A stretch of 38,895 bases of DNA from Desulfobulbaceae bacterium (GTDB lineage: Bacteria > Desulfobacterota > Desulfobulbia > Desulfobulbales > SURF-16), in the NCBI GenBank assembly GCA_027859235.1, contig JAQIBE010000093.1, positions 1-38,895 on the forward strand, written 5' to 3'. The translations under genes were made by a program, and so were the position numbers. Positions 2,192 through 3,690 of the stretch are shown here, piece after piece. The notes under the pieces were generated by a model. It did no database searches, had not been told where the DNA came from, and was given only the letters and a program-made list of their open reading frames with translations. How positions within the stretch are numbered: the stretch's first letter is position 1; each line of letters opens with the position of its first letter.

Positions 2192-2851
2192 ATGATTACT
2201 GCTGATGACTGTATTCGCTACTGTGCAATGGAGTTCTACTGCCCCCATTGCGAAACAAAACTTTCCCCCTGTGAAGTTCCACCATTTCATATCGGTGATG
2301 GTCTTGGCTGGGGAACAGAAGTATTTTTTGTCTGCCTCAATGACGAATGTCCGCCATTTGTAAAGGGCTGGGCCCATATCGAAGCACAATTTGGTCATGT
2401 CGGTTCCTATCGCTATATGCGTCTGCCCAACGAGACCAAGGGTGACACGATGATGGTCGGCAACAAAATGGCCTTCACCGGATCTATCCTTGATCCGGAT
2501 GCTATTTTAGCGGCAAACACCCGTCACCAACAGGAAAGAGCATGGGTGGAGGAATTTGACCAATCAGTTATTGATAAAAATACCGCACCGGCACTGGGTG
2601 TTCTTGTTGATGCCAAAGCCAATAAAAATCATCGCAAGGCCGCATGCGACATCCTCCTGAAGATAGGAGATATTTCCTCCTATGATGCGGCTGCTAGTCT
2701 TACCGACTTAAACCCAGAGACCGAGAACAAGGTTAATATTCTCAAAAAAGAACTGCTCAAGAAGAATTTCATGCGGGAATGCCCGGATTGTGCGGAAATT
2801 GTCAAAGCAAAAGCTAGTGTATGTAAACATTGTAAAAAGACTTTGGCGTAA
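2192..2851 (+). CDS. Double zinc-ribbon protein, function unknown
   Basis: The 219-aa product has two metal-binding regions. The N-terminal one has CPHC near residue 17 followed by further Cys residues (CLNDEC near 48). The C-terminal one is a compact zinc ribbon, CPDC at about 199 and CKHC at about 212. Between them is a soluble helical region (roughly 110-190) that could pack like short HEAT-type helices. No catalytic motif or membrane segment is visible. The start at 2192 is supported by GAGGTGA three bases upstream. It has its own promoter and no operon partner. I do not recognise a named family; binding of a nucleic acid or protein through the ribbons is only a guess. Confidence 0.75.
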   Translation: MITADDCIRYCAMEFYCPHCETKLSPCEVPPFHIGDGLGWGTEVFFVCLNDECPPFVKGWAHIEAQFGHVGSYRYMRLPNETKGDTMMVGNKMAFTGSILDPDAILAANTRHQQERAWVEEFDQSVIDKNTAPALGVLVDAKANKNHRKAACDILLKIGDISSYDAAASLTDLNPETENKVNILKKELLKKNFMRECPDCAEIVKAKASVCKHCKKTLA

Positions 2852-2945: not shown

Positions 2946-3023
2946 GGTGGGCGTAGCTCAGCTGGTGGTAGCTCCTGGTTGTGGTCCAGGTGGTCGTGGG
3001 TTCGAGTCCCATCGCTCACCCCA
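2946..3023 (+). tRNA. tRNA-His (GTG)
   Basis: A full cloverleaf is visible. The acceptor stem GTGGGCG (2947-2953) pairs with CGCTCAC (3013-3019). The extra G-1 at 2946 faces C73 at 3020, the histidine identity pair. The anticodon stem CCTGG/CCAGG holds loop TTGTGGT with anticodon GTG at 2981-2983. The T-arm GTGGGTTCGAGTCCCAT is standard. The CCA end is encoded at 3021-3023. Confidence 0.96.
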
Positions 3024-3034
3024 TTTACATATTC

Positions 3035-3068
3035 AAAGGGTTCAAGTTTCTACTTGAACCCTTTTTTT
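3035..3068 (+). terminator. Rho-independent terminator of tRNA-His
   Basis: A 13-bp perfect stem (3035-3047 with 3052-3064), loop TTCT, runs into a T-tract to 3068. It lies only 18 bases before the start codon of the next small gene, so that gene would depend on read-through or be regulated by attenuation. Confidence 0.9.
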
Positions 3069-3085
3069 ATTTATGGAGCACAAGA

Positions 3086-3289
3086 ATGACATATCCGGAC
3101 AATGAGGATTTCCCACAACTCATACTCCATTGCATATTCTGTAATGAACAAGCTGAACTTTATGGCCGCTGAGCTAATGCAAGAGTCACCTGCACGGCAT
3201 GCGGGATGGAGACGAAGGCTTCATTGTCTCAAGAACAGATTGCAGCATGGCAGGATGATGTCTGCAGAGAGTTACACAGAAAAACATAA
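3086..3289 (+). CDS. Lar-like zinc-ribbon protein with in-frame UGA (candidate selenoprotein or nonsense-interrupted gene)
   Basis: A GGAG site seven bases upstream of ATG 3086 opens a frame that reads 28 codons, meets TGA at 3170-3172, and continues in the same frame to TAA at 3287-3289 (67 residues with the UGA decoded). The parts on both sides belong together. CIFC at residues 16-19 and CTACG at 36-40 make a zinc ribbon, followed by an EQIAAW segment near 50-55. This layout resembles the Lar/restriction-alleviation type of ribbon (CPFC...CxxCG...AIxAW). The UGA is codon 29, between the two Cys pairs. A SECIS-like hairpin follows at 3189-3205. Either Sec is inserted here, or a CGA-to-TGA change has broken the gene. 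The convergent neighbour has a very likely Sec codon, so the host probably has Sec machinery. Confidence 0.55.
3189..3205 (+). promoter_or_regulatory. SECIS-like hairpin after UGA 3170-3172
   Basis: CCTGCA at 3189-3194 pairs with TGCGGG at 3200-3205 (six pairs, one G-U) around loop CGGCA. The loop has GG at positions 2-3 and starts 22 bases after the UGA. This fits the loose bacterial SECIS pattern as I remember it (a G in the first two loop bases, about 16-37 bases from UGA). The pattern is permissive, so chance is possible. Confidence 0.4.
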
Positions 3290-3290
3290 A

Positions 3291-3325
3291 AAAAGCCCAA
3301 CCTATAAAAGGTTGGGCTTTTTTTA
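3291..3325. terminator. Bidirectional terminator between the two UGA-containing genes
   Basis: AAAAGCCCAACC at 3291-3302 pairs with GGTTGGGCTTTT at 3310-3321 around a 7-nt loop, with a T-tract on the plus strand and an A-tract before the stem that gives a T-tract on the minus strand. It serves both convergent genes. Confidence 0.9.
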
Positions 3326-3348
3326 TTACTTACACAGTTGTGGAGCAA

Positions 3349-3690
3349 TTATCCGCAGGAGCCGCCTGAACAGCCACCGCTTGAACAGCCACCACCACCA
3401 CCACTACTCAGTGGAACCTTAGAAGAAATAGAGAAACCGGAGCGTGGCCCAGCATCCATAAAATCAACTGTAATTTCAAGAGTTTGAGCAACTAGTCCCT
3501 TGTCCACAAGAAATTTTAAACCATCTTTCTCTGTAATTTCATCGTTGTCTTTTGGCTCATCCAGAGCCAATCCCAGTGAAGGGCCGGATCAACCGCCCTG
3601 CATTAAGGATATCCGGATATCAGAATCAATTTTATTCTGCTCCAGATAAGATTTCAAATTCTCCATGGCGCTATCAGTAACAATCAGCAT
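3349..3690 (-). CDS. HesB/IscA-like selenoprotein (UGA-decoded Sec34)
   Basis: From ATG at 3690 (GGAGGT eight bases upstream) the frame reads 33 codons, a TGA at 3591-3589, then 79 more codons to TAA at 3349. That gives 113 residues with Sec at position 34. The context is MQGG-U-SGPSLGLAL, which aligns with the first conserved Cys of the A-type Fe-S carrier signature (GGCSG). HesB-like proteins with Sec at this site are a known bacterial selenoprotein family. The tail is Gly/Cys-rich (CSSGGCSGGSCG), probably metal-binding or redox-active. A 7-bp SECIS-like hairpin follows the UGA. Standard gene calling would truncate the gene to the last 73 residues. Its role is likely Fe-S or sulfur handling, but the substrate is unknown. 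Confidence 0.88.
3552..3570 (-). promoter_or_regulatory. SECIS-like element of the HesB-like selenoprotein gene
   Basis: Read on the minus strand, TTGGCTC (3570-3564) and GAGCCAA (3558-3552) form a perfect 7-bp stem around loop TGGAT, with GG at loop positions 2-3. The loop begins 25 bases after the UGA (3591-3589), within the range accepted for bacterial SECIS elements. The hairpin is itself coding sequence. Confidence 0.75.

Follow-up and report, generated by a model that had tools for sequence, protein, structure and literature searches.

A dual-CXXC selenoprotein gene of the G-x-U group with a covarying SECIS hairpin in a Desulfobulbaceae genome and its relatives

Does the UGA that interrupts a small open reading frame in a Desulfobulbaceae genome encode selenocysteine (Sec), or has a nonsense mutation put an end to the gene? 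The question comes from a 38,895-nucleotide stretch (contig JAQIBE010000093.1 of assembly GCA_027859235.1; here called the window, meaning the whole stretch), for which an earlier note, made from this one sequence, had proposed a new type of selenoprotein. We compared the frame with homologues in 258 genomes of the order, probably Desulfobulbales, and in a wider sample of 395 genomes of the phylum. Judged from these sequence comparisons, the frame is with high confidence a genuine selenoprotein gene, with a Sec-decoded UGA, that belongs to a dual-CXXC group with the motif G-x-U. The selenoprotein gene is real, but the group was predicted by others before, and the type is not new. Our analysis adds its wide distribution, the exchange of Sec with Cys, the covariation of its SECIS element and two conserved gene neighbourhoods.

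The features of the locus are collected in Table 1. Conceptual translation of the gene gives MTYPDNEDFPQLILHCIFCNEQAELYGRUANARVTCTACGMETKASLSQEQIAAWQDDVCRELHRKT*, a zinc ribbon of the form CxxC-x9-U-x6-CxxC followed by a C-terminal helix. Both halves of the ribbon are thus in one frame with the UGA between the two CxxC pairs, just as the earlier note had read them. The AlphaFold2 model (mean pLDDT 86.9) has a zinc-ribbon-like fold and then a long helix, and it places residue 29 in the turn between both knuckles. Searches of the PDB by sequence and by fold (Foldseek) returned only generic zinc ribbons, for example those of RNA polymerase subunits, none of them with E ≤ 0.001.

Table 1. Features at and around the selenoprotein gene, in positions of the window
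Feature	Position	Strand	Basis or remark
219-aa ORF, zinc-ribbon-like at its C-terminus	2192-2851	+	in several families conserved 5' of tRNA-His and the selenoprotein gene
tRNA-His(GTG), conserved upstream neighbour	2947-3023	+	ARAGORN/Rfam
Terminator-like hairpin separating tRNA-His from the selenoprotein gene	3035-3064	+
GGAG Shine-Dalgarno-like site	3075-3078	+	sequence; 7 nt 5' of the ATG
Selenoprotein gene	3086-3289	+	67 aa plus stop; translation, homologue UGA column, AlphaFold2 model
UGA codon 29, predicted to be read as Sec, motif G-R-U	3170-3172	+	homologue column, invariant Gly at -2
bSECIS hairpin, 6-bp stem CCUGCA/UGCGGG	3189-3194 / 3200-3205	+	covariation, RNAalifold, wobble-G bias, MFE
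Hairpin loop CGGCA, 5 nt, GG at loop positions 2-3	3195-3199	+
Stop codon of the selenoprotein gene	3287-3289	+
Terminator-like hairpin between the convergent selenoprotein genes, T-runs on both sides of the inverted repeat	3286-3326	-
HesB/IscA-like selenoprotein, convergent, UGA at codon 34	3352-3690	-	NF038090, 133.9 bits (cut-off 85)

Without recoding, UGA means stop, and the loops of zinc ribbons are often variable; the same reading frame could therefore result from a nonsense change (CGA to TGA or similar) in such a loop, which would leave the gene dead or truncated. The homologues speak against this. Within the window's family, matches were found in 16 of 22 genomes, and all 15 sequences that span the site have TGA; no copy of the gene was detected in the same-genus genome G001. 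Matches occur in 98 of the 258 genomes of the order, a number that includes a few found through a Cys paralogue only and one sequence (G018) that ends before the site. UGA stands at the same column in all 92 site-spanning sequences of the order, the window included, and these come from many families; the residue at -2 is Gly in all 92, and that at -1 is Arg in 84.

The wider sample agrees with this picture, with matches in 52 of 395 genomes (50 with TGA, two without); 20 of these matches were inspected in detail; in 18 of them the column again holds UGA, in the other two Cys. Base-by-base inspection of all these homologues, the orthologue check that the earlier note had called for, thus gave UGA at the column of codon 29 in 110 sequences, Cys in two and another residue in none, which refutes the nonsense change that the note had offered as its alternative. 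The two Cys forms, L212 (GKCENSKVVCKSC) and L213 (GKCDHSKVVCKSC), belong to one genus and fall inside the UGA group of the tree, on a long branch that makes their exact position unsure. Conservation extends to both sides of the UGA, with the CxxC pairs and GRU throughout and Q51 and W55 in the window's family, and the coding sequence downstream is under purifying selection (median dN/dS about 0.19, 16 pairs). An in-frame UGA that is either conserved or exchanged with Cys only is what is expected of a bacterial selenoprotein, and we regard a nonsense mutation as having next to no probability.

If the UGA is decoded as Sec, a bacterial SECIS (bSECIS) element should follow it. The stem of the hairpin begins 16 nt after the UGA and its loop 22 nt after it, the distance at which the earlier note had placed the loop. 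According to the published rule, a bSECIS has a loop of 3-9 nt, a stem of 4-16 bp, a G in the first two loop positions, a distance of 16-37 nt from the UGA and an MFE of -7.5 or below (PMC13188914). The window's hairpin has a 5-nt loop, 6 bp, G at position 2, a distance of 22 nt and an MFE of -7.8 to -10.4 kcal/mol, and so agrees with the rule throughout. The lower of these energies is that of a 50-nt fold, which is no more stable than its dinucleotide shuffles (z -0.09), while the hairpin alone (23 nt, -7.8 kcal/mol) reaches z -2.06 against shuffles. Since the single-sequence fold is unremarkable, the hairpin alone proves little, and the case for it rests on comparison.

That comparison used a gap-free alignment of 110 sequences, in which 93.5% of the cells of the helix are paired. 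Cells changed on both sides number 19, against 4.2 in shuffles (reached in 0 of 500), and the covariation score of the helix is 0.166, against 0.123 in shuffles. When the partner strand is slid by 1-3 columns, pairing falls to 26-65%, and RNAalifold found a consensus helix in the same columns independently. With the T of TGA numbered 0, the pair C20-G34 has become U20-A34 in L136, L138, L140 and L151, which belong to three families; in these four loci Gly gives way to Glu or Lys, and a matching change is seen at the wobble base that precedes it by two codons in the stem. Likewise, U19-A35 has become C19-G35 in 13 sequences of several families. The counts of pair changes are inflated by the kinship of the sequences, though compensated pairs recur in separate families, and some stem pairs sit in codons that are also held by protein constraint. 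Compensatory change has thus maintained the hairpin, as is expected of a bacterial selenoprotein gene, and the covariation that the earlier note had proposed to look for is present.

Codon usage provides a further sign. Loop position 2 is the third base of the codon that follows the third Cys. With Met codons excluded, this wobble base is G in 97 of 106 Sec genes but in only 1 of 32 Cys paralogues at the homologous codon. Where the residue is Thr, the codon is ACG in 72 of 73 Sec genes; ACG makes up 14% of the Thr codons of the large ORFs that flank the gene, and it is used for none of 18 Thr at the homologous site of the Cys paralogue. Such a preference fits selection at the RNA level and would be consistent with the bSECIS rule. 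The loops of the two Cys forms, L212 and L213, contain no G. Taken together, the conserved UGA, the Cys exchange, the covariation and the codon bias lend strong support to the selenoprotein gene with a SECIS-like hairpin that had been suggested from a single sequence.

The machinery for Sec incorporation is complete in the window's genome (G000), which encodes SelA (616 bits), SelB (363 bits, cut-off 242), SelD (374 bits) and a tRNA-Sec (63.8 bits, gathering threshold 47). Its SelD gene (L251, G000:C2:2589-3509) has an in-frame UGA of its own, like known Sec-containing SelD. In the order as a whole, SelB exceeds its cut-off in 215 of the 258 genomes; at the default E-value the same model also picks up related elongation factors, in all genomes, and only the cut-off is informative. 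The UGA at codon 29 would accordingly be decoded as Sec by SelB and tRNA-Sec, guided by the bSECIS 16 nt downstream.

The same genome carries, outside the window, a second tRNA with a UCA anticodon (L085, G000:C89:47090-47181, minus strand). ARAGORN calls it tRNA-SeC(tca); it has a long variable arm, a 7-bp acceptor stem and U73, and it lies near a recombinase-like ORF. Within the order, copies that are 86-90% identical turned up in G188, G195 and G174 and in no further genome. L085 may be a mobile opal tRNA that resembles selC* tRNA-Cys without being identical to it; selC* tRNA-Cys has a UCA anticodon and was described in deltaproteobacteria (PMC7609411).

A tRNA of this kind raises a different reading of the UGA, namely as an ordinary amino acid such as Cys, for which the anticodon, the long variable arm and U73, the Cys discriminator, are reminiscent of selC* tRNA-Cys (PMC7609411). 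We consider this reading very unlikely. Since close relatives of L085 occur in 4 of 258 genomes, as against about 92 with the UGA gene, the tRNA does not explain the conserved UGA; its neighbourhood is that of a recombinase-like ORF, and its acceptor stem, at 7 bp, departs from the 8/4 form. The genome also has a canonical tRNA-Sec, and the G signal in the loop points to recoding by SelB.

Decoding as Sec being the preferred reading, it remains to place the protein. Each of the 15 members tested is hit by the NCBIfam model NF041197 ("dual CXXC motif small (seleno)protein"), with HMM scores of 24 to 41.6 bits. The window protein shares the spacing CxxC-x9-[U/C]-x6-CxxC of the model and scores 24.1 bits; since this is below the cut-off of 40, annotation would probably miss the window gene. 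The one member above the cut-off is that with 41.6 bits. Because most of the tested members score below the curated model of the family, annotation would probably truncate or miss such genes more generally.

A recent review lists two selenoproteins under NF041197, OS_HP3 with the motif RxU and hypothetical protein DW with the motif GxU (SMF39960.1) (2026; PMC13188914, Table 1). In a 2022 review, SMF39960.1 had been the accession given for OS_HP3 (PMC9312934). Hypothetical protein DW was predicted in 2025 by deep-Sep, in two Desulfosarcina strains (PMC12013277). Like the window group, in which Gly occupies -2 without exception, it falls under NF041197, has the motif G-x-U and comprises Sec and Cys homologues; it differs in the organisms named, the two Desulfosarcina strains. 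The named contigs that carry our gene are labelled Deltaproteobacteria, Desulfobulbaceae, Desulfobulbus or Desulfobulbales, and a contig scan with an alignment-derived pattern gave 19 named loci, all from metagenome-assembled genomes and none from Desulfosarcina. As the two motif entries of the review match the two groups that we found, membership of the window gene in DW is very probable, on the basis of the shared family number and motif.

The second group consists of the genes that exceed the NF041197 cut-off. In most genomes these are a separate second gene; 220 of the 258 genomes have a match over the cut-off, and in the window's genome it lies on another contig (C300). All 32 of these paralogues that we inspected have Cys at the equivalent position, with the spacing CxxC-x9-C-x6-CxxC and the motif R-x-C, and in the tree they form one clade (99/97) separate from the G-x-U group. 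These OS_HP3-type copies resemble the window protein in spacing and length and are homologous to it by HMM, but they differ from it in being a separate gene, in having Cys in every copy and in the C-terminus I-[IV]-Y-D. The window protein, with G-R-U, does not have the R-x-U motif of OS_HP3 itself.

The low NF041197 score, the motif G-R-U in place of R-x-U and the separation from the Cys-form clade of the same genomes might be taken to indicate a new selenoprotein family, Lar-like and unrelated to anything described. The probability of this is small, in our view, given that NF041197 matches every member tested, one of them above its cut-off, that the spacing of the ribbon is identical and that the review (PMC13188914) already lists a GxU selenoprotein under this model. 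The statement of the earlier note that no selenoprotein of this type was known does not hold, with NF041197 homologous and two selenoprotein entries under it. Its comparison with Lar also fails. Lar is a small two-knuckle zinc ribbon too, but PF14354 scores 16.6 bits against a cut-off of 28.6, and TIGR03655 about 18 bits, among the relatives, against 39.6; both being well below their cut-offs, we rejected membership in Lar and regard the resemblance as that of generic zinc ribbons. A search with the single protein gave no match in genome contigs or viral contigs, and tblastn gave none in phage records, so there is no sign of a phage-borne family.

Placed in the G-x-U group, the gene has gone from a guess based on one sequence to a well-supported Sec gene in roughly 140 sampled genomes of the phylum. 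Its covarying SECIS and the Cys exchange make it well suited to a clean test of recoding by SelB in these bacteria, and its conserved neighbourhoods offer a first handle on function. The four Cys residues of the two CxxC knuckles would bind a metal, presumably Zn, with Sec in the turn between the knuckles, and a reactive selenol would thus lie beside the metal site. The most likely function, though we put it at less than even odds, would be that of a small redox- or metal-responsive adaptor whose selenol reacts beside the metal site or swaps onto it. A more far-reaching and rather unlikely idea is that the G-x-U group works as a unit in its own right, in which the selenol acts at the metal site, as a ligand or as a switch, and the recurrent position before tolQ in the families f2, f6 and f7 reflects the sensing of redox or metal stress for the cell envelope. 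If true, this would be an unusual use of Sec, in a zinc ribbon instead of a thioredoxin-type or metalloenzyme active site.

Two settings of the gene recur. In some loci of the families f1 (the window's), f3, f9 and f11 it follows tRNA-His, as in the window and in L090, L096, L097, L131, L138, L143 and L159, with the 219-aa zinc-ribbon-tailed ORF further upstream; in the window, this ORF has no match in NCBIfam and matches Pfam Zn_ribbon_3 only below the cut-off. A hairpin similar to that between the tRNA and the gene was seen in all eight loci checked, that is, in the window and in seven other loci of four families. In the window, hardly any space is left for a promoter after this hairpin, so transcription of the tRNA may run on through it into the gene.

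In loci of f2, f6 and f7 (for example L148 and L166), the gene is found directly before tolQ, which is followed, where assembled and by reading of the clustered sequences, by tolR, tolA, tolB and pal. The f2 and f7 loci also have FabZ- and FabG-like genes directly ahead of it, the FabZ-like gene next to it; the check with family models in this tol/fab neighbourhood covered TolQ and the FabZ-like protein only. That the gene occurs in two different settings speaks against a single fixed operon partner. In many of the f2 and f7 loci, an acyl-carrier-protein-like ORF is seen further upstream.

On its other side, the gene in the window converges with that of a HesB/IscA-like selenoprotein (NF038090, TIGR01911). 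This neighbour also has a UGA, within the Sec motif GGUSGP, and a similar hairpin with a 5-nt loop, UGGAU, which bears out the likeness between the two hairpins that the earlier note had pointed out, but it belongs to an unrelated protein family. Its product ends in a Gly/Cys-rich tail, CSSGGCSGGSCG.
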